This document shows positions 11,139 to 34,420 of a stretch of DNA of 36,434 bases, in pieces. This stretch comes from Akkermansiaceae bacterium (GTDB taxonomy: Bacteria > Verrucomicrobiota > Verrucomicrobiia > Verrucomicrobiales > Akkermansiaceae), in assembly GCA_030725745.1 (NCBI GenBank), contig JANRFH010000014.1:1-36434 (forward strand), written 5' to 3'. The position numbers and the translations under genes are program-made. How positions within the stretch are numbered: position 1 is the stretch's first letter; each line of letters opens with the position of its first letter. Below the pieces are notes generated by a model, which was given only the letters and a program-made list of their open reading frames with translations, had not been told where the DNA came from and ran no database searches.

Positions 11139-11150
11139 TAGAGGAATTGT

Positions 11151-14264: not shown

Positions 14265-14292
14265 TTGGATCCTGAGAATTGTATCTTCACTG

Positions 14293-14326: not shown

Positions 14327-14460
14327 GCGTAACACAGATGCCCCAGCCGCCAATCCGGTTTGCCCACCGAACGCATGCCAAGCCAAGCGTAAAAATCCAC
14401 CTACCTGATCTACTTTCAAAAAAAGCTTACACTCCCAGAACATTTAGCAAAAAGTCACAT

Positions 14461-16509
14461 ATGAAATTGAATCCCATTCTACTTACCTTGACGGCCTTTC
14501 TAGGGCACCTTCCGCTTCATGCTGAATCGCTAACCATCACTGGCAATGCGACAGGTTTACTCAAGGAAACCGTTTCCGATCTGAAGTCAGGTAAAGACGG
14601 CACAGGGCTCACCCAAGAGGTGGAACTCCCGGAATTCACACGCGGTGCCTACTACCGCCCGCACTCCGCATCCACGGCGGCGGGTAATCGTGTTGAAGCA
14701 GTAGCTTTCACGTCGATCGCGGAACTCGAGGCCTACCAACCTTCCAAAACTCGTAAGGCTCACAACAAAGTCCAAGAAGGCCAGTTCATTCTGCTAGAGC
14801 TGAAGGACGGTCGCTATCTCGCGCTCTTGCCGATGACTTCCGAGAAGGTCTATGGGCAGTTTTTCCTCAAGGACGGAAAGCTTCTCTTGAAAACCGGCAA
14901 CTTCGGAACCGATGCAGTGAACGGCGAGATCCCATTGATCTGCTGGGCTTACGGCGAGTCCCCCTACTCCGCTACAGAGGCAGTCTGGAAACAGGTGTTT
15001 GCATCCGGTTATGTGGCCGCACAGCCGCGCGCGAGCAAGACCTACCCCGAGGAACCCTACGGCTATCTCGGCTGGTGCTCGTGGGAGTTTTATAAAACAA
15101 AAATTTCCGAAAAAATCATCTCGGATGCATTTCATACAATCGAAGACAACAGCGCACCGATCCGCTGGTTGATGGTGGATGATGGTTATCTGGATGAGAA
15201 AGGCCGCAAGCTCATCAGCTTCGGAGTGGACAAGAAGAAATTCCCGAATGGCTGGGATCCGATTATGGATCTCAAAGACCCGGAAAAAATCAAGTGGGTC
15301 GGAGTATGGCGAAACTTCGGAGGTTACATGAGTGGTGTATCATCAGCGAATACGATGAAAGATCTGAAGCCCTACCTGAAGCCAGTTAAAAAGAAGGGCA
15401 CGGTAATGGCCTATGGCGGCAAAGAGGCGGCAAACGCCTTCTACGACGCTATGGTTTCCGATACCAAAGAAAGCGGATTCAATTTCGTAAAAGTCGATTT
15501 CCAAGCCCGCACCTTCGATCACTACAAAGGCATGCCCGACCCGATCGGTGCGATGCGTGCGAACAATGAGGCGCTGGAAAACGCCACGCACAAGATGGGC
15601 ATCCCACTGCTGAACTGTATCGCACAGCACAACATCAATTCCCTACAAACAAAATACAGCACCCTGACCCGTTCCAGCCCAGATTACAACCAGTCCGACA
15701 AGGACAAGAACAAGTGCAACACCTACCAGAGCTTCGCCAACCACCTGTGGATGGGGCAGACAGTCTGGGGTGACCTAGATATGTTCCACACCCACGATGA
15801 GCGCGATGTGAAGCCGATGGCCATCGCACGCGCGATATCCGGCGGGCCGGTATACATTTCCGACGAGCCTTCGAAGATTGTCCCTGAAGTGCTAGTCCCC
15901 TTCGCATACGAGGACGGGAAACTGCTGCGCACAGCAGCACCGGCAACACTGCTGCCGGAGAGCTTTTTCATCCATCCGTTCCGCGACGAAAACGTCTTCC
16001 GCGTGATCGCACCGATGGAAGACGGGGTGGCCGCCATCGCGCTGTTCAATTTCACCGAAGGTGGCAAGGCGCTCAGCGGTGGATTCAACACAAAGGACTA
16101 CACCTACGCCGGCGAGTTGCTCCAGCCAAACACAGGCGCGTGGAGTTCCCCTGAGGAAGGTCTTGTGGTTTATGATCGCGAAGCGAAATCGGCAGTCGAT
16201 CTGGCGGATGGTTTCACCACCGAGATCCCTAACTTCGATGCAAAATTGTTCCTACTCTATCCAAAAACCAATGGCTGGGCAGTGATCGGCCGCACTGACA
16301 AATATCTCCCTGCAGTAGCGGTGAAGGTAAAATCTGCTGACAATGATCAGATCGTTTTCACATTGAAGGAGTCCGGCCCCTTGGCGATCTGGAGCGAGAA
16401 AGGGGCACCGAAGATGGAAGGAGCCACCTTCAAGTCCATCGGCGAAAATCTCTACTTTGCGGATCTACCGGTGAAAGCCGGTGAACTGGAAGTCACCGTC
16501 ACCCGCTGA
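14461..16509 (+). CDS. Secreted raffinose-synthase (Sip1)-type GH36 alpha-galactosidase
   Basis: The gene encodes 682 residues. The ATG at 14461 starts a signal peptide (MKLNPILLTLTAFLGHLPLHA); codons upstream in the same frame are non-coding. Family motifs of the raffinose synthase/seed imbibition group within GH36 are clear: YGYLGWCSWEFYKTKIS, WLMVDDGYLDEKGRKL, VGVWRNFGGY and FVKVDFQ with the predicted nucleophile Asp346. RSSPDYNQ has Asp408 as a likely acid/base, and WGDLDMFHTHD follows. Plant members transfer galactose; secreted bacterial members are better read as alpha-galactosidases, but transfer cannot be excluded. It has its own intergenic region after a terminator, and ends 7 bp before a convergent dehydrogenase gene. 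It fits removal of alpha-galactose from the glycan attacked by the neighbouring enzymes. Confidence 0.88.
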   Translation: MKLNPILLTLTAFLGHLPLHAESLTITGNATGLLKETVSDLKSGKDGTGLTQEVELPEFTRGAYYRPHSASTAAGNRVEAVAFTSIAELEAYQPSKTRKAHNKVQEGQFILLELKDGRYLALLPMTSEKVYGQFFLKDGKLLLKTGNFGTDAVNGEIPLICWAYGESPYSATEAVWKQVFASGYVAAQPRASKTYPEEPYGYLGWCSWEFYKTKISEKIISDAFHTIEDNSAPIRWLMVDDGYLDEKGRKLISFGVDKKKFPNGWDPIMDLKDPEKIKWVGVWRNFGGYMSGVSSANTMKDLKPYLKPVKKKGTVMAYGGKEAANAFYDAMVSDTKESGFNFVKVDFQARTFDHYKGMPDPIGAMRANNEALENATHKMGIPLLNCIAQHNINSLQTKYSTLTRSSPDYNQSDKDKNKCNTYQSFANHLWMGQTVWGDLDMFHTHDERDVKPMAIARAISGGPVYISDEPSKIVPEVLVPFAYEDGKLLRTAAPATLLPESFFIHPFRDENVFRVIAPMEDGVAAIALFNFTEGGKALSGGFNTKDYTYAGELLQPNTGAWSSPEEGLVVYDREAKSAVDLADGFTTEIPNFDAKLFLLYPKTNGWAVIGRTDKYLPAVAVKVKSADNDQIVFTLKESGPLAIWSEKGAPKMEGATFKSIGENLYFADLPVKAGELEVTVTR

Positions 16510-18331: not shown

Positions 18332-20170
18332 TTAGAATGTCGCCGTAAGCCCGCCATAAAAACCGATTCCTGCGCCGGGGATACGAGTGCCGCCGAAGTT
18401 CGAAAGCTCATATTGCTGATCTGCGATATTCTCTACTCGCCCATGAAGTGTCAGATTTTCCGATACCTCATAGCTGCCATACAGGCGCAGAAGCAAATAG
18501 TCATCCAGAGGCGCACCACCGTAGGAGCGCGTATCGACATATGTCGCACCGATTCCGAGAAGTAACTTCTCCACAGGACGCCAATCGAGGGACGCGGTAG
18601 CCGTATTCTCTGGCTGATCCACAAGGGAGTCCGTGAGGTGGGTGTATGAAACGCGATAGCCAAGTGTTTCTCCGAGTTCACCGCCCAGCGCCAATTCGTA
18701 ACCTCGGGTTGGCGTTTTTCCGGACAGATTCACTGGAGGTGGGCTTAAGGGGAAGACAAACGTATTTTGAATCCGGTTCTTGATGGAGTTCTCGAAATAG
18801 GTGAGTGACACTCTATGATGGTCACCCAATTTTTGCTCCACACCTAAGTCCCAGCCAAGGCTTTCTTCGGCAGCGAGATTGGGATCGCCAAGACCGAAGG
18901 TGCTGCCGTATCGATCTTGGAAACTCGGCGTACGGAACGCCTTGCCGATACCTGCACGGAAACGTGTCTGCTCAAGTGCCAGCCAAGAACCACCCACGCG
19001 CCATGTGATCTGATCGCCAAAGTCCACATAGTCCTCCCAACGCACCACAGCATCTAACAGCACTGTTTCATGCGCCTGCCACTCAGCGCCAAAATGGGCT
19101 CCATAGCGCACCTCGTTTGAGGCCGTGTTAAAAGTGTTGGCGAAATCCGTGTATTCCAAGAATGCTCCGCCTAACAGTGTAACATCATCGCCCAGCGTGT
19201 AGCTCTGATCCGTGGACAGCACCGTGCGATCCAAATCCGTCCCGAAGTTCGCGCCGAAGTAGTCATTGTAATAGCTTTCAGCATAGCGACCCAGCGTAAA
19301 TCGGGCTGTCCAGTCTGGTGTGAGTTGTGCATTTGCATAGACCGTCAGCAGATCCGCATCGACGTGATCGGTGTTCGTCCCGAAAAACTGATACTGGAAT
19401 CGGCTATCGATGGCACGATATGTCATGCCCATCGTGAGAGTGTCCGATTGCGCCCACTCTAGGCGTAAACTACCTCGCACTTGGTCGAAGTCCTCCCCCA
19501 CTGCATCGTTATGCGTGCCATCATAGCCTGCCCCCACGAACCACGAGAGCGCACCCTCCTGCCCTGCATTTGAGAGAAATCCATTGAACGAACCGAACGA
19601 TCCACCCTCCAGCCGCAGCTGTGTCTTCGCATCACCTTCGCCACGTGCCGTTTCCAACCAGATGACTCCGCCGACAGATTCTCCACCATGGATCGCTGCC
19701 TGCGGCCCTCGCAGCACCTCAATCGTGCTCAGATCTTCCAGCCGAGCACCTGCCAAAAAAGTCCCCATTGATGTATTCGAATCGCTCACCCGCATCCCAT
19801 CCACGACGAGCTGCGAGTAGGCAGTCGTTGTTCCCCGGATAAAAACCGAGCCGGCAGCTCCTGTCTGACCACCCGTCGATGTGGCGATCACACCCGGGAT
19901 CTCATTGAGCGCCTGACGGAGATCGAATATTCCTCTTTCCTCAAACTCCTCAGGATCAAGCACCGTCACCGCAGATGTGGCTTCAGAGACCTTGCCCGGC
20001 ATTCTCCATGCGGAAACGACAAGTACATCAAGTTCCCCATCGGTAGGCAGGCCGACTTCTTCTTCAACCTCAGCAGAAATATTTCCACCAAGCGCGAGCG
20101 CTGCAACACCGATGAGGGTGCAGCTTATCCTGTTCGTCCGGCATTTCGCGGACGTTATGTTTTGTATCAT
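18332..20170 (-). CDS. TonB-dependent receptor, probable cobalamin transporter (BtuB-like)
   Basis: The gene encodes 612 residues. A signal peptide (ISCTLIGVAALALGGNISA) is followed by a TonB-box-like stretch (ELDVLVVSAW) and a plug domain from about 60 to 170 (LNEIPGVIATSTGGQ, VFIRGTTTAYSQLVVDGM, IEVLRGPQAAIHG, GGVIWLET). A 22-strand-type barrel ends in TATF, the usual C-terminal Phe signal for outer-membrane insertion. The length of about 610 residues fits BtuB and is far shorter than SusC. The decisive evidence is the cobalamin riboswitch directly upstream, 18 nt before the start codon beyond its last hairpin. The protein is therefore expected to import vitamin B12 across the outer membrane and to be shut off by it. 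No BtuCDF genes are visible. A dedicated terminator follows. Confidence 0.9.
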   Translation of the reverse strand: MIQNITSAKCRTNRISCTLIGVAALALGGNISAEVEEEVGLPTDGELDVLVVSAWRMPGKVSEATSAVTVLDPEEFEERGIFDLRQALNEIPGVIATSTGGQTGAAGSVFIRGTTTAYSQLVVDGMRVSDSNTSMGTFLAGARLEDLSTIEVLRGPQAAIHGGESVGGVIWLETARGEGDAKTQLRLEGGSFGSFNGFLSNAGQEGALSWFVGAGYDGTHNDAVGEDFDQVRGSLRLEWAQSDTLTMGMTYRAIDSRFQYQFFGTNTDHVDADLLTVYANAQLTPDWTARFTLGRYAESYYNDYFGANFGTDLDRTVLSTDQSYTLGDDVTLLGGAFLEYTDFANTFNTASNEVRYGAHFGAEWQAHETVLLDAVVRWEDYVDFGDQITWRVGGSWLALEQTRFRAGIGKAFRTPSFQDRYGSTFGLGDPNLAAEESLGWDLGVEQKLGDHHRVSLTYFENSIKNRIQNTFVFPLSPPPVNLSGKTPTRGYELALGGELGETLGYRVSYTHLTDSLVDQPENTATASLDWRPVEKLLLGIGATYVDTRSYGGAPLDDYLLLRLYGSYEVSENLTLHGRVENIADQQYELSNFGGTRIPGAGIGFYGGLTATF

Positions 20171-20421: not shown

Positions 20422-21840
20422 TCAATCACCTTCCTCAACGGGCTTGCCTTCCCGGTAAATCATTTCACGAACCACCCCACCCTCTTCGTCATACTCGATG
20501 AATTTCCCATCCGGCAGACCCGCCTTGTATGAGAGCGACATCTTCAGCTTTCCTCCGGGGAAATAGACCTCCGTAATGCCCTCCAAGCGATGGCTGGCAT
20601 AGCGTTTCACATAGCCGACTTCCCCCTCTTCGGTCAGTCCCTTCATCGTCCATTTCCCCTCGCCAAGAAAGCTGAGGCGTATATCGCCATTGGTATATGT
20701 CCCCACCGGAGGAGCTTTGATCACCACAGGCTCCTTCTGCTCCTCATCGAAAAGATAGATCCGCCCCACCTCTTCGCCGTCCATGTGAAACGCCGTGAGA
20801 TTCTCATACCGCATCTTGCCAAACGTCGCCCGCGAATCCTCCTTCGGCTGGAGGCTCCTGAAATCGTTGGCCTGGACATTGACGCGCAGCACCTTCCCAT
20901 CACCGCCTTCCTCCGAAACCTCGAATCCGAAGTAATCATAGTAGTGCGTGATGATCGGCTCTTCTTCGTCATCATTGTGATCCGAGTTCAAAAGGTTCTT
21001 TTCGGAACTGCTCCGTATAAAATCGGCCTTCCCATATTTTGCAACGATCTCAGAAAGCTTCGGCTGCCTATTGCAAGGCGGAGTGGACGTCGCAATCTGT
21101 ATAAAAAATCCACCTTCCATATCCTTCTGCTGCCTCATGGAGAAAAACAGGGAGTCGATCCGCCCAGCAGCGTAGCCTTTTTCGAACAACGCCTCATCGA
21201 GCAGGATTTTGCCACCCAGCGAATCCAGCCCCTTCACCTGCCCTGCGGCTGGCAGCGGCTTAAGCCCCAGTGCCTTCTCGAAAGCCTCGTGATCCCAGTC
21301 TTTCACCGACTTCGAAAATGCAGCACGGACGCGGAGTTTCCCCTTCGATTTCTCATGCATTCTTCGGAACCAAAGCACATATTCCGCTCCGGGTTCAAAA
21401 TAGCCACCCTCCAACACCTGCATCGTGCGGAAACGGTTTTTCTCCCAAGGTTTGTCTAGGCCTTCGTAGAACTTGTCAGCTATCACCCAGTTCCTGAAAC
21501 CCGCCTTCACCTCCTTATCCAGCGGCAGTATGTACCAGTTCGACCACCCTTCTGGCACATTGAAATACCACACGAAATCCTTCCCTTTAATGTTCTTCGG
21601 AACGGTCAGCCGTATCCCGTCATATTGAGTGCCGCCGGACTCCACCATCGTTTCACCGAGATTCAGATCCAACCGCATCGCCTTCCCATCCCCTCCGAGT
21701 GCCAGCTTATCTAGCTTATCCCTTCCTTCCGAAAGCGCCTTGGACAGCGCCACCATCTCATCATCCTGGCTCCACGCCGAACCTGCAACCGCCAGCAGCC
21801 CAAACAAAATCAACTTTCCGAACATTCTCATTTCTATCAT
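20422..21840 (-). CDS. Exported protein of unknown function with C-terminal MORN-like repeats
   Basis: The gene encodes 472 residues from the first ATG; in-frame ATGs 3 and 5 codons on are equally plausible. It starts with a signal peptide (MFGKLILFGLLAVAGSAWS). The large middle part (about 30-390) has no domain I recognise. The last 60 residues contain two to three short repeats of the MORN_2/YwqK-like kind (YFPGGKLKMSLSYKAGLPDG, FIEYDEEGGVVREMIYREGKP), a motif widespread in exported bacterial proteins and of no fixed function. It reads divergently from folD across a 113-bp gap. It ends about 78 bp before the riboswitch aptamer, so read-through into the B12 receptor would be possible; no terminator was found there. 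Confidence 0.8.
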   Translation of the reverse strand: MIEMRMFGKLILFGLLAVAGSAWSQDDEMVALSKALSEGRDKLDKLALGGDGKAMRLDLNLGETMVESGGTQYDGIRLTVPKNIKGKDFVWYFNVPEGWSNWYILPLDKEVKAGFRNWVIADKFYEGLDKPWEKNRFRTMQVLEGGYFEPGAEYVLWFRRMHEKSKGKLRVRAAFSKSVKDWDHEAFEKALGLKPLPAAGQVKGLDSLGGKILLDEALFEKGYAAGRIDSLFFSMRQQKDMEGGFFIQIATSTPPCNRQPKLSEIVAKYGKADFIRSSSEKNLLNSDHNDDEEEPIITHYYDYFGFEVSEEGGDGKVLRVNVQANDFRSLQPKEDSRATFGKMRYENLTAFHMDGEEVGRIYLFDEEQKEPVVIKAPPVGTYTNGDIRLSFLGEGKWTMKGLTEEGEVGYVKRYASHRLEGITEVYFPGGKLKMSLSYKAGLPDGKFIEYDEEGGVVREMIYREGKPVEEGD

Positions 21841-21953: not shown

Positions 21954-22832
21954 ATGTCCCAACCCCGCATCATCGACGGAAAAGCCGTCGCCGCCTCCGT
22001 CCTCGAAGAATGCCGCACCGAGACCGCCGTCCTTAAAGCAAAGGGCATCACACCTGGTCTCGCCGTCGTCCTCGTCGGCAGCGACCCCGCCTCCGCCGTT
22101 TATGTCGGCTCGAAAGCGCGAACCTGCGCCGATCTCGGCTTCCACTCCGTCAAAATCGAACTCCCGGAAGAAACCACCCAGGAAGAGCTCCTCAAAGTTG
22201 TCGCTGATCTTAATGCCGACCCCGCTGTGCACGGCATCCTAGTCCAGTCACCGCCTCCCGCCCACATCGATGAGGCGACCGTCATCCGCGCCATCGACCC
22301 ACGCAAAGACGTCGATGGTTTCCACCCGGAAAACGTCGCCAAGCTCGTCCTCGAAGACCCCAGCGGCTTCGTCCCCTGCACCCCGGCAGGTTGCATGAAA
22401 TTGCTGGAAATCTCCGGCGTCGAGACTAAGGGCACGGAAGCCGTCGTTATCGGCCGCTCCATGATCGTTGGCAAACCAATGGCCATGCTCCTCGTTGCCA
22501 AAGGCTCGGACGCCACCGTCACCATCGCCCACTCACGCACCAAGGATCTCCCCGCCGTCTGCCGCCGTGCGGACATCCTCATCGCCGCGGTCGGTCGCCC
22601 TGAAATGGTCAAAGCCGATTGGGTGAAACCCGGAGCCGTTGTCATCGATGTCGGCATCAACCGCATCCCAGACGCCACGAAGAAATCCGGCTCCCGCCTC
22701 GTCGGCGACGTCGATTACAACGAAGTAGCCCCACGCTGCGCCGCCATCACCCCCGTCCCCGGCGGAGTCGGCCCCATGACCATCGCCATGCTCATGAAAA
22801 ACACCCTGCAAGCGGCAAGACAACTTGGCTGA
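21954..22832 (+). CDS. folD: Bifunctional methylene-THF dehydrogenase / methenyl-THF cyclohydrolase
   Basis: The gene encodes 292 residues, the usual FolD length. It interconverts 5,10-methylene-, 5,10-methenyl- and 10-formyl-tetrahydrofolate in the cytosol. The catalytic YVGSK (Tyr50 to Lys54 by position), [10 protein letters not shown], the Rossmann motif [10 protein letters not shown] and the C-terminal signature [10 protein letters not shown] are all present. The usual VQLPLP segment reads VQSPPP, keeping the Gln but changing both Leu residues. Codon use is strongly C-ending compared with the enzyme block upstream. The stop codon abuts the stop of the convergent downstream gene with no base between. 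A decayed copy of this gene's last 13 codons is found at 23705-23740. Start: ATG at 21954, without a Shine-Dalgarno. Confidence 0.97.
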
Positions 22833-23549
22833 CTATCTATCTTGCGCGCTTTTTGTTTCCGCCTCCTTCGCCTCGACCGCCAGACGGTTCTCGGTGATGA
22901 ATTTAAAATCTACGGGGCCGCGTGACTGATCCTCGCCTGGCACCATGAAAACGAGATGACGCTGCTCTTGCTGATGTTGCCATATCCCCGAATAGATGGG
23001 TCTATCGCGTTTATCCGGCGCGAAAACTGCCACGCCTATTTTTCGTGATTCCCCACCAGGAGCCACTTCCACAGGAGACCAGCTTACTTCTATCTTCACT
23101 TCTTTTTCCTCATAGTTGAAATAAAGTTCCTGCTCGGTAGCATTGATCAGATGAATCGTCCCCCACCCGAATTCATTCACATCATCCTCCAATACGATCA
23201 AACGCAGTCCAGCCGGCACTTCCTTATCCGGCAATAACAGGACGAGAGGATTTTTCATCCCTTTCCCAAGCTCCAATGATATGGAGGCAAATCCGCCTTC
23301 TTCATCTTTCCTATCCATCGCGACGACGCGCAAGCTCTCCGCTCCGGCCGGCACATCAATTTTATCCGTTCGCTGCGAGGGGTGCATTTTTTTAATCGCT
23401 ACAGTCTTTTTGCCCCAAGCGACGGCGATTTCACGTGAGGAAACCCCTTCGTCCCATGCCAAGAAGCGAACCGGAACAGCGCTTGCAAAAGTGGAACTTA
23501 GCCCCAATGCCAAAATGATAAAACAAACCTGGTACTTTCTAAGTGTCAT
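22833..23549 (-). CDS. Exported protein of unknown function, paralogue 1
   Basis: The gene encodes 238 residues with signal peptide (CFIILALGLSSTFASA). It is not a family I can name. My hand alignment with the gene at 23763-24482 gives about 73% identity over the full length, with blocks MHPSQRTDKIDVPA, MKNPLVLLLPDK, TIHLINAT, DKRDRPIYS and DQSRGPVDFKFITENRLA nearly unchanged. The protein is predicted to be beta-rich and free of other membrane segments. Its ATG overlaps the stop of a decayed Verru_Chthon A fragment (ATGA), exactly as the intact paralogue overlaps the living gene. It therefore has probably lost its original upstream gene and its own promoter is unclear. It is convergent with folD and touches it. 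Confidence 0.85.
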   Translation of the reverse strand: MTLRKYQVCFIILALGLSSTFASAVPVRFLAWDEGVSSREIAVAWGKKTVAIKKMHPSQRTDKIDVPAGAESLRVVAMDRKDEEGGFASISLELGKGMKNPLVLLLPDKEVPAGLRLIVLEDDVNEFGWGTIHLINATEQELYFNYEEKEVKIEVSWSPVEVAPGGESRKIGVAVFAPDKRDRPIYSGIWQHQQEQRHLVFMVPGEDQSRGPVDFKFITENRLAVEAKEAETKSAQDR

Positions 23550-23713
23550 TGCTGAGCCTCAGTATGAATGAGATTGCGGAAGGAAACGATAAGAAATTTC
23601 CTGCCGAAAATCTCGGAATCGGGCGTATCCTGCGCATCCATAAACTCCTATGTGCGCTGCCCTGACACTTCTAGGTGGGCTTTCGCCACCAACTCCCCTC
23701 CGGAATCGTCATT
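23546..23713 (-). pseudogene. Decayed 3' end of a Verru_Chthon A gene
   Basis: On the minus strand this stretch translates in one frame as 55 codons plus a stop, with an internal TAG at 23648-23650. LVAKAHLEVSGQRT, a stop, EFMDAQDTPDSE and IFGRKFLIVSFRNL match LAKAYLEVTVQRTPEFTD and FFGRKFRIVSFRYL at the C-terminus of the intact A gene (24479-27985), minus a nine-residue segment. The terminal TGA overlaps the ATG of paralogue 1 as in the intact locus. The similarity stops near 23704, where a folD remnant begins on the other strand. It is a remnant, not a gene. Confidence 0.85.
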
Positions 23714-23740
23714 AAAAACGCACTACAGGCGCAAGGAGGC
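23705..23740 (+). pseudogene. Decayed 3' end of folD
   Basis: Read on the plus strand, codons at 23705-23731 give IVIKNALQA. This matches MLMKNTLQA at the end of folD (22788-22814), and most base changes fall in third codon positions. The match then fades into the intergenic sequence after paralogue 2. Together with the Verru_Chthon A remnant it marks the junction of an old tandem duplication. The short length keeps confidence moderate, but order and orientation agree with the model. Confidence 0.7.
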
Positions 23741-23762
23741 ATGGCGATTACCTGTCTTGCGT

Positions 23763-24482
23763 TCACTCTCCCTCTTGGGCTTTTTGTGCTTCTGCTTGCT
23801 TCGCCTCGATCGCCAGACGGTTCTCGGTGATGAATTTGAAATCCACCGGCCCGCGCGATTGATCGTCACTTGGCACCATAAAGACGAGCTGGCGTAGCTC
23901 CTCCCGATGCTGCCAAACCGCTGAATAGATGGGTCTATCACGTTTATCAGGAAGGAAAACCGCCACGCCTATATTTCGTGACGCTCCTCCGGGGGCGACC
24001 ACCACAGGAGACCAGTTTGCTCCCAGCTTCGTCGGCTTTTTCTCATGGATGAAATAGAGTTCCTGCCCAGTAGCATTGATCAGATGGATCGTCCCCCAGC
24101 GGAAGTTGGCCACATCATCCTCAAGCGCGACTAAACGCAGTCCTGTGGGCGCTTTCTTGTCAGGCAATAAAAGGACAAGCGGATTCTTCATCCCGTTCGT
24201 AAATTTCAATGGAACAGAGAGAAATTCACCTTCCTCATCTTTCCTATCCAGCGCGACGATGCGTAAGCTCTCAGCTTCAGCTGGAACATCAATTTTATCC
24301 GTTCGCTGTGAGGGGTGCATATTGGCAATCTCTACTGCGTCTTTGCCCCATGCGACGGCAATCTTTCGCGAGGAAACTCCATCGTCCCATGCCAGGAAGC
24401 GAGCGGGAACAGCGCTTGCAAGCGCGGAACAGAGCCCCAAAGCGAGAACAATAAACCGAACGTGGTATTTCCTATATGTCAT
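23763..24482 (-). CDS. Exported protein of unknown function, paralogue 2 (coupled to Verru_Chthon A)
   Basis: The gene encodes 239 residues with signal peptide (FIVLALGLCSALASA). It is a close paralogue (about 73% identical) of the gene at 22833-23549. Shared blocks are FLAWD(D/E)GVSSR, IAVAWGK, MHPSQRTDKIDVPA, VLLLPDK, WSPV-VAPGG and GPVDFKFITENRLA. The ATG overlaps the stop codon of the Verru_Chthon A gene in an ATGA, which predicts translational coupling. The product probably works with that protein, for example as a periplasmic or surface partner. No enzyme motif or metal site is evident. The C-terminus is Lys/Glu/Ala-rich and variable. Function unknown; the coupling is seen, the partnership inferred. 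Confidence 0.88.
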   Translation of the reverse strand: MTYRKYHVRFIVLALGLCSALASAVPARFLAWDDGVSSRKIAVAWGKDAVEIANMHPSQRTDKIDVPAEAESLRIVALDRKDEEGEFLSVPLKFTNGMKNPLVLLLPDKKAPTGLRLVALEDDVANFRWGTIHLINATGQELYFIHEKKPTKLGANWSPVVVAPGGASRNIGVAVFLPDKRDRPIYSAVWQHREELRQLVFMVPSDDQSRGPVDFKFITENRLAIEAKQAEAQKAQEGE

Positions 24483-27400
24483 AGTTGAACTTCGTTTTGA
24501 TTGAGATAGCGGAAAGATACGATCCGAAATTTCCTGCCAAAAAACCCGTTTTCCAAGCTCAGATCAGAGATCGCAGTCTCCGGATCATCACCTGTATCCG
24601 TAAATTCCGGCGTGCGCTGCACGGTCACCTCAAGATAAGCTTTTGCCAGCACATCTCCAGCACTGTTACGGGATTCACCGTAGCTGCGTATCGTAAAGGT
24701 ATCCGAGCGAGCAGTGAGCAGAGGCGCGAGCGGTTTTAGCAGGTCTGCCTGAGTAAGGTAACCGGGAATTCCGACCCCTGTATCTGCCGGATTCAGGTTA
24801 TTCGCCTCCGCGCCATCATAACTGGCGGTAGACATGCTTTCCTGCAAGGCGTCCTCATTGATTTCAGTCGCATCCAGTGCTGCCTGCAACGCCCCGGCCA
24901 GACCGAGATTATCAGAGGAAACCCTGCGGTTCACGAATTCCGCCAGCGACAGGAATGGCCCTCGCTGTTGAACCTGATTCACGATCGCCGTGGCAAGCTC
25001 CTCAATCTCACCATCTGAGAGCGTCCGGTAGCCATGCCAGTTATCATTTTCCTCACCCACTGGATCACGAAAACGCGGAAAAGGAGTCACATTTGGCGTT
25101 CCGGCAGCACTTCCGTTCGCTAGCGTGAACTCCGCCGATCTAAGACCCGACAGCATCGCCTTCCATGCCTCGACGCTCGTCGAGTTCACATTGAAAGCAC
25201 CATCCACCATCAGGTTCCCAGCAATTTTCAGGCAGCCCTGTGGCTCAATCATATCATTGACGAACTCCGAGACATCGAATTCCCCATCACCACGATAGAG
25301 TCGCATACGGGGATTTCTTAGCGGGTTCTCATCCGGATCTTCCGCAAATTCCCTTACCACGGATTGGAGGGTCTTACCCTCGGTGGCAATCTCTGAATCC
25401 CATACATTTGAGCCACCCGTGCGTGTGCTGTATGAAAGAGTCGGAGCAGCTCCGCTGAAAAAAAAGCGATCCCACAACGCCTCGTTCGTCAAGTAGCAGT
25501 GATCCACTTCCGATGCCCCATCTTGAACCGCATCCCTAGGCACGTAGCCGCTCGCCCAGCTATTGCCGAACTGGTTTGCCGGAGAAAATGGCGAAGGGGA
25601 AAAATCTGCGTGTTGCAGTGCAGCAAGAGAAAGCAACGGAGCCTGCGGAATTTCAAAAAACGATAGATTGGTACGACCCGTCAAAGCTCCATCCGACGCA
25701 CCGTAGAATGATCTCCGCCCAGTGATATCTGTCTGCAATACCCCACTGAATGAATTCACCGCACGCATCCGCATCTGATATTGCGAACCTGTCTTGAACG
25801 AGCTTTTCGTCACGAAAGGGTTCATCCATGCCTGCCTAGGGTTCCCCGTATAGACGAGATCCGCAGATTGGATATCCGATCCCGACAGAGCGACTCGGTG
25901 ATAAGTTTCCAGCACTCCCACCGGCACCGGCTCAAGTCTCAAAGTTGATCTATCAATTCGAGCCGAACTGAAATTCTCCGTCTCTCCAGAGATCGCAAAA
26001 CCATCCGAAATAATATCAGCTATTACTTGCCCATATTCAGTCTCAGCCGGTGCGACACCCCTAGCGCGAGTCGCATCTTCCAGCGCGAAGCTAAATGGGT
26101 AGTCTTCACCCCGCCAATCTACCGTTCGAACAAGTATTTCCGCCTGCTCCCCAGTGGCCAATGGTAAGCTATTCCTACGAATGAACAATCCTCCCTTGGT
26201 TGAAAGCTGCGAAATATCATCCACTGGCCTCATAAAAACTGTTCGATCACGGACGGATACACCCTTCGCCTCTGGGATGACTTTAAGATCAGGACTTGAA
26301 GGAGCGAAGACCCTGACCTCCCCGGGCTCAAAGCGCACGGGCGTAGGTGCTCCGCGGCCGATGGGCTGCCCATCTGCTGTGATTGCAGCAAAGAAATAGG
26401 GCAATGACGAACGACCCGTAGTGGTCTGGGTTGTCATACCAGAGAAGTACTTGGTCTGTCTCGCTTTCCGAGACCCACTTGAGTTGTAAGTCGTCAGAAT
26501 TCTTTGGAAAGGAATGTCTAGCCAAGGAAAAGCCACTGCACCTTCGATCTCTAGGGCTGTATTATATGGGTTCCAAAGTGTGATAATAGGCGTGACCACG
26601 AAATTACAAAGATCCGTACCCGGATCATCCCCTGGAACTACTCCCAAACTCACGAGAAACATCAATTTATCCACCACCGGGCGGAGACCCATCTGTGTCT
26701 CCGTCCCTTGAAATGTATCACGCGGTGCAGGGCTATAGCCTGAGCTAGTCGACCCACGAGCACCCGCCACATGATCCGCTTCACGCTCAAACGCAGTCAC
26801 ACCATCAGATGTTAGATAGAGATGTTTCGGAATGCGGTAAAATGAACGCAAAGTATCAAATGTAGGCACACTTGCAGTGGGAAAGAAAAACTCCACATCC
26901 GCTCCCGCGAAAGCACGTTGATAATTATAGGTTCCGCTATCCTGCAAAGGCTGGTAAAACGGTTTCTGTCCCAGATAGGTGGAAGGCGTAGAGGCCACGC
27001 CATCTGGGTCATCACCTCGGAAAGGATTATCAAGACCATCCCAATTGTCTTCGACGTAATCAGAATCACTCATTTCCATGCCTAGGCTCAAATCCACCTT
27101 AAGCCCGCCACTTACTACATCCGTCAAAAGACCATATGAGCTAGTCGTAAAATCCGCCCCCCCCAGCTCCACATTCTCCGGTGCCCCAAGCCCACTATCT
27201 AGCTCCGCTTGTGTGAGATCTATCACCTTTCCCGCTCTCTCGTCCCAGCCACTTACAGGTTGTTGGAAAATATTTCCCAGCCCTAGGTTAGGACGCGGTT
27301 GTGCCTGCAAATCATCATTAGGAATGCGGTCAGCCAGCTCTGGCCCCGCCACATTAATCTTTGCTCGAGTGTTCTCCTGCTTAACAGCCCAAGCATACCG

Positions 27401-27985
27401 CCCGTTTGCACGAGATCCATCCACCGCTAGAAGCGGTGCATTCAGCGAAAAGCCATCTATATTCTCGTGGAAAAGCGAGACACTATCGCCGGCCAATGCT
27501 GATTTCACCCAATCCATATTCTCCACATCCGCTTCACTTCCTGAAACCAACCACTTCAAAAACCTTTGCTCTTTTTCGGACTCATAATCCGGCGCAGCTG
27601 CTAGCAAGTCTTCGGAAAGTCGCGGCGACCATGATTCCCAGACTCCCACCACATTTTCCTCCAACGCTCCGTCCAGAATCGAAGAATCCGCCGTAATCCG
27701 CCTATCGTCGCCCAGCGTGGTTTGAAGCTCACCCAGCGCCAACATCATCGCCAAATTCGCATTCGCCCTAGCCTCTGCCTGCGCCTGACCATGACTTGAA
27801 CCTCGTAGAGCCACACTAGAAAGCGAGAGCAGTCCTATCGCTAGGATCAACAGCAACACCATCAAAGTCAGCGTTACAATTAGCGCAAAACCTCGTGTTT
27901 TGTGTGTCTTAGACACTGCGAGGCCTTTAAACTTCAGGCTATTCCTATCTGGCGTTCTCATTGGGTTTTGGATTAAAAACACCAT
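24479..27985 (-). CDS. Verru_Chthon cassette protein A-type pseudopilin-like protein
   Basis: The gene encodes 1168 residues. The ATG at 27985 has GAGG four bases upstream, rare for this window; an ATG 8 codons later has none. Residues 31-57 are a type IV prepilin-like N-terminus: Arg-Gly-Phe, then the hydrophobic ALIVTLTLMVLLLILAIGLL, then Ser-rich. A GLn/Ala-rich helix follows (RANANLAMMLALGELQTTLG). Length, start and the C-terminal signature (FGRKFRIVSFRYLNQNE) fit Verru_Chthon cassette protein A, a family known from Verrucomicrobium and Chthoniobacter with no known function. In those genomes it usually sits beside further prepilin-like genes (B, C, D); none is visible here. Instead it is translationally coupled to a 239-residue exported protein and is divergent from a giant lamin-tail surface protein 225 bp away. 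Export by a type IV pilus or type II-like machine is likely but inferred. Confidence 0.85.
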   Translation of the reverse strand: MVFLIQNPMRTPDRNSLKFKGLAVSKTHKTRGFALIVTLTLMVLLLILAIGLLSLSSVALRGSSHGQAQAEARANANLAMMLALGELQTTLGDDRRITADSSILDGALEENVVGVWESWSPRLSEDLLAAAPDYESEKEQRFLKWLVSGSEADVENMDWVKSALAGDSVSLFHENIDGFSLNAPLLAVDGSRANGRYAWAVKQENTRAKINVAGPELADRIPNDDLQAQPRPNLGLGNIFQQPVSGWDERAGKVIDLTQAELDSGLGAPENVELGGADFTTSSYGLLTDVVSGGLKVDLSLGMEMSDSDYVEDNWDGLDNPFRGDDPDGVASTPSTYLGQKPFYQPLQDSGTYNYQRAFAGADVEFFFPTASVPTFDTLRSFYRIPKHLYLTSDGVTAFEREADHVAGARGSTSSGYSPAPRDTFQGTETQMGLRPVVDKLMFLVSLGVVPGDDPGTDLCNFVVTPIITLWNPYNTALEIEGAVAFPWLDIPFQRILTTYNSSGSRKARQTKYFSGMTTQTTTGRSSLPYFFAAITADGQPIGRGAPTPVRFEPGEVRVFAPSSPDLKVIPEAKGVSVRDRTVFMRPVDDISQLSTKGGLFIRRNSLPLATGEQAEILVRTVDWRGEDYPFSFALEDATRARGVAPAETEYGQVIADIISDGFAISGETENFSSARIDRSTLRLEPVPVGVLETYHRVALSGSDIQSADLVYTGNPRQAWMNPFVTKSSFKTGSQYQMRMRAVNSFSGVLQTDITGRRSFYGASDGALTGRTNLSFFEIPQAPLLSLAALQHADFSPSPFSPANQFGNSWASGYVPRDAVQDGASEVDHCYLTNEALWDRFFFSGAAPTLSYSTRTGGSNVWDSEIATEGKTLQSVVREFAEDPDENPLRNPRMRLYRGDGEFDVSEFVNDMIEPQGCLKIAGNLMVDGAFNVNSTSVEAWKAMLSGLRSAEFTLANGSAAGTPNVTPFPRFRDPVGEENDNWHGYRTLSDGEIEELATAIVNQVQQRGPFLSLAEFVNRRVSSDNLGLAGALQAALDATEINEDALQESMSTASYDGAEANNLNPADTGVGIPGYLTQADLLKPLAPLLTARSDTFTIRSYGESRNSAGDVLAKAYLEVTVQRTPEFTDTGDDPETAISDLSLENGFFGRKFRIVSFRYLNQNEVQL

Positions 27986-28066: not shown

Positions 28067-28130
28067 GCGAAACCCCCAAAGCTCCTCCAGCTCCCCCCAC
28101 CCGGATCTTCACCTCCTCGCTTGCTCGCCT
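28061..28130. repeat. Direct repeat, left copy (remnant of macroglobulin 3' end)
   Basis: The core 28091-28130 matches 34456-34492 at about 34 of 40 aligned positions, including a shared 17-nt run CCCCACCCGGATCTTCA. A weaker match (CATAG-CG-AAC) continues to the left. Read on the minus strand it gives SEEVKIRVG, compared with SDEMKIRVG at the end of the macroglobulin gene. It lies in the 225-bp region between the two divergent genes. It is either a gene fragment or one copy of a dispersed repeat. Confidence 0.55.
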
Positions 28131-28210
28131 CGTCGCCAGATTTTTGTTCATGCTGGAAAAAATTTCGGACGTCGACATGTGATACCTGCTTGGCTAAGAC
28201 GGCATATTCT

Positions 28211-31200
28211 ATGATAAACCCCCATCACCTCCTCAAAGCTTTTTGCTTTTTAGCATTGGTATCGAGCGGAATCTCTGCAGCAGAGGTAGTCGTGGAGCCC
28301 GCAGGTGCGTGTACGCGTAAAACCGGATTCGTGATTTCAGAAATCATGTACAAACCGGCAGGGGCAACCAACGCCCTCGAGTTCATCGAGATTTACAATT
28401 CCAACCCATTTGAAGAGGAAATCGGCGAATATCGCATTGAGGGAGAGATCAGTTTCACCTTTCCCGTAGGCACTATATTGGATGGAGAGTCTCGACTTTT
28501 GCTGGTCAAAGACTCAACCGCCTTCCAGCAGCAATACAATTTGTCAGGTGTGCAGATATTTGAATATGGCGCAGCCGACGGAAGCAATTCACTGGGTAGC
28601 TCCGGCAATCTGACAATGGTCAATAGCTCCAATGGAATCGTGCTGGAAATCGATTATGAAAACGATGCACCATGGCCGGTGGCGGCGAATGGCGCGGGGC
28701 ATTCCATGGTACTAGCTCGCCCATCATATGGCGAAAACGATCCACAGGCATGGGAGAGCAGTGATCAAGTCGGAGGCTCGCCAGGTGCGGCTGATACCTA
28801 TGGAGATGCGGCGTTGAGAAAAGTAGTCATCAACGAAATCCTCGCGCATACGGACAGTCCACAGCTCGATACCATCGAGCTCTACAATCACTCGAACTCC
28901 AGCATCAATATTTCCGGTTGCACGCTTTCCGATGACGCGACGCTGAGCAAATACACCATCCCTAATGGCACGGTATTGGCTGCACGTGGTTTTGTAATTT
29001 TTAATGAGAATCAATTGGGCTTCAAGCTCGGCTCAGATGGTGAAGCCGTCTATTTCCGGAATGCTGCGGGCACACGTGTGATCGACGCTTATAAGTTTGG
29101 CGGACAGGAAAACGGTGTATCGATTGGCCGCTATCCAAACGGGGGCTCGGAATTCCATCGCATGGCCAGTCTTACCTTAGGCAGTGCCAATGGCGCTCGG
29201 CGCATTGATGATGTGGTGATCAATGAAATAATGTATAACCCCATTTCCGGAGAAACTGGGGATGAATATGTCGAACTGTTCAATCGCAGCGCGGTCAGTG
29301 TCGATCTGGATGGCTGGCGTCTATCTGGGGGCATCAGCTACACATTCCCTGCTGGAGCACAAATTCCCGCCGGTGGCTATATGGTGGTTGCGGCGGATGC
29401 CGCGCGGTTAAGAACCAACTACGCGCAGCTAAATACTTCCAACACATACGGAAACTACAGCGGAAAATTGGGCAACGGCGGTGATCGTGTGCAGCTCGAT
29501 ATGCCCGATACGATTATCGACAATACGGTTCCTTCCGCGCCAGTAACCACAGTGATCCACATTGTGGTGGATGACGTCACCTACGAAACAGGTGGGCAGT
29601 GGCCAGTCTGGGCCAAGGGCGGCGGCAGCAGCATGGAGCGCGTGGATCCCCGCTCCAATCCCCGCCGTCCGACCACATGGGCGGACAGCGATGAAACCGC
29701 TAAGGCGACTTGGACGGACATTTCACATACCGGACTTCTGCAGCTCGGACAAGCATCGGCCAACCGCGTCGAGGGCGGCCTCCAAGGTGCGGGCGAGTGC
29801 CTGTTAGACGATGTAAAGGTGGTGAGTAACGGCACGAACTACGTCAGCAATTCGACATTTGATAGCAACCTGACAGGCTGGCTCGCCCGAGGCTCGTTCA
29901 TACGTTCCTCTCTGTCTTCCAATGGTTTTGGAGCAACGTCCTGCCTGCATATACGTGCGAGCACACGCTGCGATACCGGGGCAAACCAAGCTAGCGGTGC
30001 CCTTTCCTCAACGATCGCAAGCGGAAGCACTGCAACCATTTCCGCGAGAGCCAAATGGCAGAAAGGCTATCCATGGATGTACCTGCGCCTGCATGGCAAC
30101 TACCTTGAAGTGGCTACACGACTCAATGTTCCCACGAATCTAGGATCGCCCGGGCAAGTAAACAGCCGGGCAATCGTCAATGCCGCTCCTGCGATCGATG
30201 ACGTGGCGCACACACCGGTAGTGCCTTCTGCCGGGCAGAGTGTGGTAGTCACTGCACGCGCCGAAGATCCGGACGGACTCGCAACGCTTTCGCTGTTCTA
30301 TCGAATCGATCCCGCGACATCCTACTCGACCGTTTCTATGAACGATAGTGGCACCTCTGGTGACGCAATCGCGGGTGACGGCATCTTCAGTGCCACCATC
30401 CCAGGGCAATCCTCGGGGGCACTTGCAGCCTTTTACGTGAGCGCAACTGATTCCGCTGGATCGGCTGCGCGCGTGTTTCCCGGGAACAATCCGTCGAACT
30501 CTGCCCGCGCACGGGAGTGCTTGGTGCGCTTTGGGGATGCCACACGTGCCAGCAGCTTTGGCACCTATCGCATGTGGTTTACGGCGGCCGCAATCACTGA
30601 CTGGGAAACAAGACTCGCCTTGAGTAACGAGGATGTTGAGGGCACGTTCGTTTACAACGACAACCGTGTAATCTACAACTTCGGCGCATACTATGCGGGA
30701 GGCAGCTACAAGCAGAACTATGGATCGCCTCTCAGCGACTCGAATTACACCATGGATATGCCATTGGACGACAAGCTCCTGGGTACTGACAGCTTCAATA
30801 AATTGCACGCTACCGGGCAAAATCCGTTCGACGACGCATATATGACCCGGGAGCAAGCAGTCTTCGAGACGGCACGGCAGCTAAAACAACCATGGCTATA
30901 CCGGAGATATGTAAACGTCTATGTGAACGGCGTAGCACGCAAACAGGGCTGGCTAATGGAAGACACCCAAGTCCCAAGCGGTGATTTCATCGATTCCTAT
31001 TTCCCAGACGATGCGGAAGGCAACCTCCATAAACTAAGCCTATGGATGGAGTACACCGATTTCGCGACTACGACTACCGTGGAGCTAACTGACCAGCGCA
31101 AGGGGCAAGCCAAACTCCTCGCTCAATACAATGCTGTGGGAGAGCTCCACGCTCCGGCCTACCGCTGGAGCTGGGCACCGCGATCCTATGGCAACAATGG

Positions 31201-34200
31201 CAGCAATGATTTCTCCTCAGTTTTCGAACTGATCAACTCTGCCAATTCGGGAGCCGATATGACTCAGCGCATGATGGCATTTGCGGATATGGAAGAGTGG
31301 ATGCGGATATGGGCAGCTCGCCACGCATCTGGTGACGTGGATAACTTCGGTCGTGATCTGGGGCAGAATTTCTATATGTATAAACCCACAAACGGACGGG
31401 CGAAATTGCTAATCTGGGATGCGGGACATGTTTTTGGAACCGGTGCTTCATTCCTTCCGGGTCGAGGTCTGTTTCCTAATTTTAAATCCCCAAACGGCGC
31501 CGATGACACGATCTGCAAAGCCATATTCGATAACCCGACGTTTCGTCGTATGTATCTGCGAGCCTATAAGGAAATCGCGAATGGATCATTCAGCGCGACC
31601 CGTATGAACAACTGGCTTGATGTGCGTTATGCCGCGTTTGCTGCAGATGGAATTACCGCGGCAGTCTCGCCCGATACCTCCTTCAGCCATGACGACAACG
31701 ACAGGGGTGAAAACTATGATAAACTAAACGCGTCAGGTGGCGCGACTTCATATACTGGCAGCTTGAAAAATTGGGTAGCAACCGCGCGCACCGGCATCCT
31801 GACTCAAGTGGCAGCACAGGATGTCTCCTCTTTTGCGCTGACCAGTCCAAGTTCGGTTACCAGCAGTAGCAATACGATTACCATCACAGGATCGGCTCCA
31901 GTTGAAATGGCCACCATGACGATCAATGGCGTGGCATATCCCGTCACTTGGATATCGGCGACATCGTGGACAGTCGATGTGGTGGCAAATGCCTCACCCA
32001 CAACGTTTGTTTTGCAGGGACTGGACGTAAACGGAAATCCATTGTCCGGATTTTCCGCGACGGTTTCTGCAACGGTGACAACACCTCTGGATGCACCTGA
32101 AACCTCAGTAGTCATCAATGAAATCCTCTACAATCCTACAACCGCTGGCGATGAGTTCGTCGAACTGCGCAACCGCTCCACCACGACTGCGTTTGACCTG
32201 ACGGGATGGCGAGTAAACGGGTTAGGTTACACATTTCCAGCCACGATACTTGAACCCGGAGGCTACCTAACCATTAAAAACTTCCCCGGCAAACTGGATC
32301 AGGATGGCGAGACTCTGACCCTTTATCGTCCCGATGGAAGCGGCTCGGAATTAGTGGTGGATAAAGTTCGATACGAGAATGTGGCTCCATGGCCGACGAC
32401 CCTCGCTGGAAGTTCATTGCAGCTCATGGACAACGAGCAGGATAACCGCCGAGCCGCACTCTGGAGTGCTTCTAACGGTGTCCCGCCATCTGGAGGAACC
32501 CTCTTCGACTGGGGCTCAAGCTGGAAGTATCGTCAGGGCGTAAACCTGGATGGCACGGGCTGGCAGACGTACGGTTATGATGAGGCGGGTTGGTCTACCC
32601 CTGCACCCGGTGCATTTGGAGTCGAGATCGCGACTCTACCTCATCCGATTCAGACACCGTTGACTATGGGGAATCTTACTTACTATTTCCGCAAGACGAT
32701 TGATTTCACCGGAGACGCAGGCGCTTCACTGTTGATGACGAACATGGTGGACGATGGTATGGTGGTGTATGTCGACGGCGTGGAAGTTTATCGTGTCCGC
32801 ATTCCTGACGGCACACCGACCTACACAACACCCGCAACGTCGACCGTAAATAACGCCACCGAAGAGGGGCCATTCGTCATACCTTTGTATCTGCAACTGG
32901 GCTCGCACGTGATTGCCGTCGAGGTACATCAGATCAATACCGGCAGCAGTGATCTCGTGTTTGATATGAAGGTGGAAACTGACTACTCACATCTCGCAGA
33001 TCAAGCCACCCCAGGCGTGGTCAACAACGTCGGTTATCCGAATGCCGATATACCCGCACTCTGGCTTAACGAAGTATCCCCCTCGCCCATCAGCGGCATG
33101 GCATGGGTCGAACTCTACAACGCTGGAAGCACAGCACTATCTCTCAACGGGTATTCCCTGAGCGACGATTACAATGACTTGGCTAAATGGCCGCTTGCCA
33201 CTGGAATCACAATTCAGCCCGGAGCGTTTCTGAAGGTCGATTTAGCGGTTGGGTCACTGACCACCGGAAGTATTGCGCTTTCCCGGGATATCAATGGATC
33301 TCCCGAACTGATCGATTATCTCAACCATGGAACCGTTCCGGCGGGCTGGAGCTACGGCGACTTCCCCGATGGCGACCCATGTTCTCGCCTGGCGATGTAC
33401 GTGGCGACACCAGGTGCATCCAACACCAACCAGTCCGCCCCGCTCGCCGTGGCCATCAATGAATGGATGGCCGACAACACCACGACGCTGGCGGATTCAG
33501 TCGATGGTAATTTCGAGGATTGGTTCGAAATCTATAACCCCGGAGACAGCCCCGTCGATCTTGGCGGTTATTTCCTGACCGATGATTTAAACGATCCCTT
33601 TCAGTTTGAAATCCCAACGGGCGGAAAATACACGATTCCCGCTCACGACTACCTGATCGTCTGGGCAGACAACGAGTCCGCTCAAAACGATATCGATGCC
33701 TCTTCACTGCACGTAAATTTTGGCCTATCGAAAAATGGAGAAGCCATTGCGTTAGTCGCCCCCGATGGAAACGTGATCGACAGCGTCACATTCGGTGCGC
33801 AAGTAGCGGATCAAAGCCAAGGGCGAATGCTCGATGGAGGTGCCACCATTACCAATATGTTGTCGACGCCGGGCTCTACGAATCAGGTCGTCAACACCGC
33901 ACCTGTATTGGCTGCCATTGCTGATGCGACATTCTATCCCGGCGGATTGATTGCATTTTCGGCTTCTGCCACGGATGCAGAGAGCGCATTCCAAACCCTA
34001 ACTTATTCCTTAGAATCGGGAGCTCCAGCTGGGGCTTCGATCACACCTTCAGGTTCATTTTCTTGGAGCATTCCGACTAACGCGGTTCCATCAGATTCGC
34101 CAATTACTATCCGTGTGACAGATAACGGCACCCCTACGCTCAGCGATACAAAAAGCTTCACGCTTCACGTCGTAGACCTACCGACATTTAGCACCATCCC

Positions 34201-34420
34201 AACCTTATCGGGAGATGGACTCACGCTGAAGATTGAAAGCCCTGTCTCAGGGCACAGCTACTCCCTCTTCTACAGCAATACCTTGTTGGATTCGTCTTGG
34301 TTCCCGATGGGCGCGGCCAAGCTCGGCAACGGCACACCACTGGAGTGGGAGGTTCCGATTACGGAGGGTGTTCCGAAACGATTCTACCGCTTCGCTATTG
34401 AAGATGCTGCATCTCCATAG
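28211..34420 (+). CDS. Giant surface protein: six lamin-tail domains, CotH-like domain, Ig-like repeats
   Basis: The gene encodes 2069 residues. The ATG at 28211 opens a signal peptide (HLLKAFCFLALVSSGISAA). Lamin-tail domains start at about residues 39, 204, 335, 1300, 1616 and 1746, each marked by (V/I)INEI-type strands and a later VEL(Y/F)N or IEIYN. Residues from about 540 to 660 look like a jelly-roll module. Residues from about 780 to 1190 resemble a CotH kinase domain (RRYVNVYVNG, GDVDNFGRDLGQNFYMY, LIWDAGHVFG). Ig-like segments lie near 1205-1295 and 1896-1990, and a galactose-binding-like fold near 1432-1600. There is no PEP-CTERM or barrel anchor; the end looks like a sorting-type beta domain (GHSYSLFYSNT). 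It is divergent from the Verru_Chthon A gene, and large proteins of this kind are typical of the phylum. Adhesion or matrix function is inferred. Confidence 0.88.
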   Translation: MINPHHLLKAFCFLALVSSGISAAEVVVEPAGACTRKTGFVISEIMYKPAGATNALEFIEIYNSNPFEEEIGEYRIEGEISFTFPVGTILDGESRLLLVKDSTAFQQQYNLSGVQIFEYGAADGSNSLGSSGNLTMVNSSNGIVLEIDYENDAPWPVAANGAGHSMVLARPSYGENDPQAWESSDQVGGSPGAADTYGDAALRKVVINEILAHTDSPQLDTIELYNHSNSSINISGCTLSDDATLSKYTIPNGTVLAARGFVIFNENQLGFKLGSDGEAVYFRNAAGTRVIDAYKFGGQENGVSIGRYPNGGSEFHRMASLTLGSANGARRIDDVVINEIMYNPISGETGDEYVELFNRSAVSVDLDGWRLSGGISYTFPAGAQIPAGGYMVVAADAARLRTNYAQLNTSNTYGNYSGKLGNGGDRVQLDMPDTIIDNTVPSAPVTTVIHIVVDDVTYETGGQWPVWAKGGGSSMERVDPRSNPRRPTTWADSDETAKATWTDISHTGLLQLGQASANRVEGGLQGAGECLLDDVKVVSNGTNYVSNSTFDSNLTGWLARGSFIRSSLSSNGFGATSCLHIRASTRCDTGANQASGALSSTIASGSTATISARAKWQKGYPWMYLRLHGNYLEVATRLNVPTNLGSPGQVNSRAIVNAAPAIDDVAHTPVVPSAGQSVVVTARAEDPDGLATLSLFYRIDPATSYSTVSMNDSGTSGDAIAGDGIFSATIPGQSSGALAAFYVSATDSAGSAARVFPGNNPSNSARARECLVRFGDATRASSFGTYRMWFTAAAITDWETRLALSNEDVEGTFVYNDNRVIYNFGAYYAGGSYKQNYGSPLSDSNYTMDMPLDDKLLGTDSFNKLHATGQNPFDDAYMTREQAVFETARQLKQPWLYRRYVNVYVNGVARKQGWLMEDTQVPSGDFIDSYFPDDAEGNLHKLSLWMEYTDFATTTTVELTDQRKGQAKLLAQYNAVGELHAPAYRWSWAPRSYGNNGSNDFSSVFELINSANSGADMTQRMMAFADMEEWMRIWAARHASGDVDNFGRDLGQNFYMYKPTNGRAKLLIWDAGHVFGTGASFLPGRGLFPNFKSPNGADDTICKAIFDNPTFRRMYLRAYKEIANGSFSATRMNNWLDVRYAAFAADGITAAVSPDTSFSHDDNDRGENYDKLNASGGATSYTGSLKNWVATARTGILTQVAAQDVSSFALTSPSSVTSSSNTITITGSAPVEMATMTINGVAYPVTWISATSWTVDVVANASPTTFVLQGLDVNGNPLSGFSATVSATVTTPLDAPETSVVINEILYNPTTAGDEFVELRNRSTTTAFDLTGWRVNGLGYTFPATILEPGGYLTIKNFPGKLDQDGETLTLYRPDGSGSELVVDKVRYENVAPWPTTLAGSSLQLMDNEQDNRRAALWSASNGVPPSGGTLFDWGSSWKYRQGVNLDGTGWQTYGYDEAGWSTPAPGAFGVEIATLPHPIQTPLTMGNLTYYFRKTIDFTGDAGASLLMTNMVDDGMVVYVDGVEVYRVRIPDGTPTYTTPATSTVNNATEEGPFVIPLYLQLGSHVIAVEVHQINTGSSDLVFDMKVETDYSHLADQATPGVVNNVGYPNADIPALWLNEVSPSPISGMAWVELYNAGSTALSLNGYSLSDDYNDLAKWPLATGITIQPGAFLKVDLAVGSLTTGSIALSRDINGSPELIDYLNHGTVPAGWSYGDFPDGDPCSRLAMYVATPGASNTNQSAPLAVAINEWMADNTTTLADSVDGNFEDWFEIYNPGDSPVDLGGYFLTDDLNDPFQFEIPTGGKYTIPAHDYLIVWADNESAQNDIDASSLHVNFGLSKNGEAIALVAPDGNVIDSVTFGAQVADQSQGRMLDGGATITNMLSTPGSTNQVVNTAPVLAAIADATFYPGGLIAFSASATDAESAFQTLTYSLESGAPAGASITPSGSFSWSIPTNAVPSDSPITIRVTDNGTPTLSDTKSFTLHVVDLPTFSTIPTLSGDGLTLKIESPVSGHSYSLFYSNTLLDSSWFPMGAAKLGNGTPLEWEVPITEGVPKRFYRFAIEDAASP

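Follow-up and report, generated by a model that had tools for sequence, protein, structure and literature searches.

Introduction

Gene duplication and amplification in bacteria gives rise to tandem segmental duplications, which can carry truncated remnants of the flanking genes at the junction between the copies. Translational coupling by termination–reinitiation at ATGA overlaps is described in two reports (PMC6728339; PMC10666635).

The locus analysed here lies in a window of 36,434 nt that is the entire contig C14 of its source genome. It reads folD (plus strand), B1 (minus), a gap containing the tail of gene A and the tail of folD, B2 (minus), and the intact gene A (minus). The features are collected in Table 1.

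Table 1. Features of the folD–B1–B2–A locus, in window coordinates
Feature	Position	Strand	Basis
folD, methylenetetrahydrofolate dehydrogenase/cyclohydrolase gene, intact; source of the folD arm (22792-22832)	21954..22832	+	Pfam PF02882/PF00763
B1, intact distal copy (238 aa) of the gene for a small secreted protein	22833..23549	-	Comparison with B2, tree
A remnant, 3′ end (copy 1), 153 nt; in frame except for one TAG and 27 deleted nt	23546..23698	-	Alignment, shuffles, codon reading
Candidate 31-codon ORF within the A remnant; TGA overlapping the B1 ATG (ATGA)	23546..23641	-	
Duplication junction, end of copy 1 and start of copy 2, resolution about 10 nt	23699..23708	.	Limits of both alignments
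folD 3′-end remnant (copy 2), 39 nt, two 1-nt deletions	23709..23747	+	End-anchored alignment; indels from local alignment
B2, proximal copy, 239 aa, intact, shorter tree branch	23763..24482	-	ORF, tree, codon model
Intact gene A (1168 aa; N-terminus prepilin/GspK-like), from which the A arm derives (24479-24658)	24479..27985	-	ORF, profile matches

Results

Both arms of the duplication are present in the gap

Self-alignment of the two arms, proposed as a check in the preliminary description of this DNA, gave significant similarity in the predicted order and orientation. The 3′ end of A that had been suspected in the gap aligned at 23546-23698 with 24479-24658, with 112 of 180 columns identical (gaps counted) and a score of 99 that was reached in 0/1000 shuffles (shuffle means 20-27). 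For the folD arm, local alignment paired 23709-23735 with 22792-22819 (22/28 identical). In an unanchored local match to the entire folD gene this arm is weak (18/1000 shuffles reach its score), but against the last 73 nt of folD its score of 29 was reached in 0/1000 shuffles (maximum 28). Anchored at the B stop, in a test picked once the alignment had been seen, the arm ran collinearly over 22792-22832 and 23709-23747 with a score of 28 (shuffle mean 2.3, maximum 19, 0/2000). It is thus its position that makes the folD arm convincing, and the folD 3′ end claimed earlier for the gap stands at 23709-23747. The intact folD scores above the NCBIfam PRK14188.1 cut-off.

The two copies are direct repeats, and the junction joins both ends of the repeated unit, as in a tandem duplication. 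The earlier breakpoints, which placed the copies at 22791-23704 and 23705-24660, are correct within about 10 bases, the junction lying at about 23699-23708; the sequences there are too diverged for microhomology to be read. The ATGA overlap occurs twice, between A and B2 at 24479-24482 and, kept in the remnant as had been noted, between the remnant and B1 at 23546-23549.

Elsewhere in the window, a gene with a weak MORN-like match (20422-21840) sits between a TonB-receptor gene and folD. A carbohydrate-active gene cluster (4235-16509) comprises two alpha-L-fucosidases, a sulfatase, a GH28 gene and a raffinose-synthase-like gene, with a TonB receptor nearby. A very large LTD/CotH protein (28121-34420) is encoded divergently from gene A; it has 2099 aa counted from a TTG, and an internal ATG may be the true start.

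B1 and B2 are constrained sister genes

B1 and B2 share 74% amino-acid identity, differ at 155 nucleotides over 238 codons (41, 26 and 88 at codon positions 1, 2 and 3), and come out as sisters (support 100/98) when 22 B proteins are placed in a tree. The end branch of B1 in this tree is 0.28, and that of B2 is 0.083. Private changes were more numerous in B1 in 15/20 outgroup comparisons (4 ties, 1 reverse); the excess attains a chi-square of 3.84 with only 5/20 outgroups, and the 20 outgroups are mutually related. A pairwise codon model over the first 235 of 238 codons gave an omega of 0.26 (0.18-0.34) and a neutral distance of 0.61 (0.46-0.75), an omega that shows purifying selection on both B copies as a pair.

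The same type of model for A and its remnant gave an omega of 0.24 (0.10-0.49) and a neutral distance of 1.14 (0.64-2.47), nominally larger than that of B1 and B2, with intervals that share only 0.64-0.75. The neutral distance of folD to the nearest of seven relatives tested is 1.34 (1.03-1.94). The distance between B1 and B2 is smaller, so the duplication would postdate the split from the relatives compared, if neutral rates are equal between the genes. The order and orientation of the fragments, the sister relationship of the B genes and the overlapping age ranges give good support to the reading put forward in the preliminary description, in which the unit [folD 3′ end - B - A 3′ end] was duplicated in tandem and in place; the observation behind it, a repeat with gene remnants at its junction, is confirmed.

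The A remnant bears signs of coding constraint

Read in the frame of A, the remnant contains one TAG and lacks 27 nt, and is otherwise open down to the TGA overlapping the B1 ATG. The deletion is a single gap in the codon reading, which the nucleotide alignment divides into 15, 3, 1 and 8 nt. The A arm has no net frameshift, and within its 39 nt the folD arm has lost a single nucleotide at each of two places. An ORF with its own ATG occupies the last 31 codons of the A remnant. Once the TAG, the nine codons lost by deletion and three junction-adjacent codons are set aside, 52 codons remain, over which A and the remnant differ 11, 12 and 26 times at codon positions 1, 2 and 3; the pairwise model of A and its remnant likewise omitted the junction-adjacent codons. 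The changes had been described as mostly at third positions, and this excess is real, but the conclusion drawn from it, that the remnants were copied from functional sequence long ago, is unsupported: a copy dead from the start would gather changes at all positions, so the bias suggests constraint after copying.

Pure neutral decay as a full account of the A arm was rejected with a clock, where a remnant branch of free omega improved on a neutral one by a 2ΔlnL of 8.98 (0/120 simulations reach it), and at a p of about 0.015 with no clock (5.90); with lengths fixed from B1/B2 the value was 3.17, and neutrality was not rejected (two-sided 5%). Closer outgroups, 12 of 22 relatives' A genes, gave 8.99 (clock), 6.29 (no clock) and 3.28 (fixed lengths). 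Omega on the remnant branch was estimated at 0.19-0.32, or 0.64 with fixed lengths. Pairwise omega between A and the remnant was 0.14 for the codons before the TAG and 0.25 for those after it. The former alone gave a non-significant 2ΔlnL of 0.37 with no clock; the latter gave 4.25 with no clock, 4.83 with a clock and 2.83 with fixed lengths, and the branch tests resolved no difference in constraint between the two parts. One valine is common to the remnant and the window's A, and an alanine takes its place in all 17 other A tails compared (L125, whose A is cut by a contig end, omitted).

These results suggest a period of coding constraint on the A fragment after it was copied, and the third-position bias seems to point either to a second A that was once longer and lost its front later, or to a function of the tail. 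In neutral simulations the frame stayed as open as this in 25% of runs at t = 0.3, 10% at 0.57 and 5% at 0.9, and the ORF by itself is therefore no proof. The anti-SD energies were -6.8 for the ORF, -6.3 for A, -5.6 for B1 and -0.5 for B2. Random 20-mers matched the anti-SD equally well in 8% of cases for the region before the ORF and 18% for that before B1. With random or pre-ATG 20-mers, 8-21% equalled the strength of the ORF and B1, and anti-SD strength was therefore dropped as evidence of translation.

No A–B pair beside folD was found in the relatives compared

The comparison covered 73 genomes of the genus, the window's own included, with matches to B in 32 (E <= 0.001), to A in 68 (E <= 1e-10) and to folD in 71 (E <= 1e-30). 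Among the matches listed, compared by eye, no relative had a B match on its folD contig save single-contig genomes, in which the two are at least 300 kb apart. Neither A nor B was detected in 20 folD neighbourhoods of relatives (tblastn, 1e-8), some of which are ended by contig ends that may hide cases, and an A–B pair beside folD was not found in any relative among the genus genomes compared. A close homologue of the TonB-receptor gene (18332-20170), with 58% identity or more, lies within about 500 nt upstream of folD in 8 of the 20 neighbourhoods. The lack of A and B at the relatives' folD, together with this adjoining receptor, suggests that the A–B pair arrived beside folD in the window's lineage. 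As a side observation, folD is split over two overlapping matches in L137 (G069, 8269-9145), likely by a frameshift or assembly error, and is split too in G010 (C49:15946-16822).

In a tree of A genes, the window's A joins locus L150 of an Opitutales MAG (96/95) and, at 100/100, Roseibacillus persicicus with another two MAGs, and stands apart from A genes assigned to several members of the genus. Such a grouping could result from horizontal transfer or from an old paralogue. The ATGA overlap of A and B is also found in L150. Among 66 loci surveyed, 25, some of them cut by contig ends, have a strong tblastn B match behind A, and more have weak ones. A single B behind A is the rule (23/25 loci), the exceptions being L164 with two B genes and L167 with two whole A–B pairs. 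L167, from Haloferula luteola, contains these complete pairs in the order A-B-A-B (1070-10067).

A second duplication of the same type occurs in the genome

An N-terminal profile identified nine A-like genes in the source genome, a list that may be incomplete (A has 20 matches in this genome, and 9 of 12 candidates were scored). In the window and in the stretches examined around the other eight, a B-like gene follows 8/9 of them, and two such genes follow at three loci (C14, C49 and C53). The C49 locus (L225, G000:C49, 4183-5728) has the order A-B-B′, with two B genes that are 71% identical. The 44 nt before B′ match those before B, including the last 16 nt and stop of A, with a score of 48 (shuffle mean 1.7, maximum 19, 0/1000). 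Judged from its sequence, C49 is an independent duplication of [A end - B]. It resembles C14 in having a second B copy with the A end duplicated alongside; it differs in that only the last 16 nt and stop of A are included, no folD was found in the alignment, and A and B are separated by 25 nt in place of an ATGA overlap. With a second A-B-B′ that includes the A end, duplications of this type recur. L226 (G000:C53, 4136-5314) also reads A-B-B′; its second B frame is broken by a TGA, and its B genes are about 30% identical.

A falls short of the Verru_Chthon A cut-off, and B has no family match above cut-off

Gene A had been named Verru_Chthon A, a name that does not hold: against TIGR02600 (Verru_Chthon cassette protein A) it scores 22.4 bits, with a cut-off of 332.3, over residues 32-90 only. 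None of the nine matches to TIGR02600 in the source genome exceeds the cut-off. Likewise, none of TIGR02598, TIGR02599 and TIGR02596, which we take to be cassette proteins B, C and D, exceeds its cut-off in this genome, and none of the weak matches is on C14. The Verru_Chthon cassette was thus rejected as an identity for the locus. The match of A to GspK NF037980 is 19.9 bits, with 130 needed. We found no literature on the Verru_Chthon cassette, and titles and abstract openings revealed nothing recognisable as the present case.

B1 and B2 have no Pfam or NCBIfam family over cut-off; DUF4397 is a weak match in 5/27 relatives, and a contig scan of genomes with B2 alone as the query was uninformative. 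In the high-confidence predicted structure of B (mean pLDDT 91.5), a signal-like helix at the N-terminus precedes a fold that is mostly beta. The structures most similar to it are the extracellular domains of PepT1/PepT2, with Z up to 13.3; seven of the eight PepT1/PepT2 entries have Z of 10.8-13.3 at 7-13% identity, and the eighth has 8.0. For this predicted model the similarity is taken as a common arrangement and not a common function. The pairing of A with B suggests a joint role, either at the cell surface or in secretion.

Discussion

One tandem duplication of [folD end - B - A end] very probably explains the locus. The A–B pair would first have come to sit downstream of folD in this lineage, an arrangement that presumably existed before the duplication. 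Roughly 0.9 kb, reaching from the final codons of folD to a point about 60 codons short of the end of A, would then have been duplicated in tandem to produce folD - B1 - [A tail, folD tail] - B2 - A. B2 would have retained the ancestral place behind A, and the operon would have acquired in B1 an additional, third gene that changes faster. More tentatively, the A tail was perhaps not simply lost, as it holds the B1 start region, the ATGA overlap and the open 31-codon frame. The coding constraint on the remnant fits poorly with a fragment useless from the day of duplication; the remnant may have persisted because it serves as a translational leader, or may be the leftover of a longer second A.

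A longer second A would imply two steps: first a duplication of the whole A–B pair along with the folD end, after which the extra A was long functional, and later a 5′ deletion that extended up to the folD fragment. The poorer fit of a neutral remnant branch (2ΔlnL 8.98-8.99 with a clock, 5.9-6.3 without), the codons before the TAG, which seem no less constrained than those after it, and the existence of whole A-B-A-B arrays as in Haloferula luteola are in keeping with such a history. However, it needs two events and a deletion that happened to end beside the folD fragment, neutrality was not rejected with lengths fixed from B1/B2 (3.2-3.3), the part before the TAG is not significant by itself with no clock, and at C49 only a very short A end was copied; we regard the two-step history as rather improbable. 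The alternative of chance similarity, with B1 and B2 as paralogues of long standing on either side of an unrelated spacer, can draw on the 18/1000 shuffles that match the folD arm as a free local match, but is so much at odds with the anchored test (0/2000), the A arm (0/1000), its amino-acid reading and the collinear order that we reject it as having next to no likelihood.

Use of the tail as a leader would add to the single duplication rather than replace it: the A tail would be kept as a translated short ORF whose termination hands ribosomes to B1 by termination–reinitiation at the ATGA. Its 31 open codons end in ATGA at the B1 start, the deletion is a multiple of three, an equally open frame survived in at most a quarter of the neutral simulations, and the codons after the TAG show a degree of constraint (4.25 to 4.83, or 2.83 with fixed lengths). 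Against this, the ORF is short and its survival not improbable under neutrality, and the ribosome-site matches are weak, 8% (ORF) and 18% (B1) of random 20-mers being as good; a leader function is a possibility to be held only tentatively. B was copied along with an A end in two independent duplications of one genome (C14 and C49). It is a little more speculative still that the duplicated A end has been retained as a translated 31-codon leader starting B1, such that copying the tail of gene 1 with gene 2 would carry a coupling device along.

The locus provides a clear example of an operon gaining a gene, in which the copy brings along the end of the preceding gene, where its own start region lies. 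Should the remnant still be translated, it would show a gene fragment put to new use as a leader; if not, it is an ordinary fossil in good preservation. In kind, the locus is ordinary genome evolution, unusually clearly preserved, to which the analysis adds a likely constraint on the remnant and an independent second case elsewhere in the genome.

Like other bacterial tandem segmental duplications, C14 has direct-repeat copies and a novel junction joining the ends of both flanking genes. It differs in being old (neutral distance about 0.6) and uncollapsed, with both B copies constrained. With the systems described for ATGA coupling (PMC6728339; PMC10666635), A–B2 and remnant–B1 share the ATGA overlap; the difference is that the upstream partner of B1 would be the remnant of a gene, in a coupling that is putative here.
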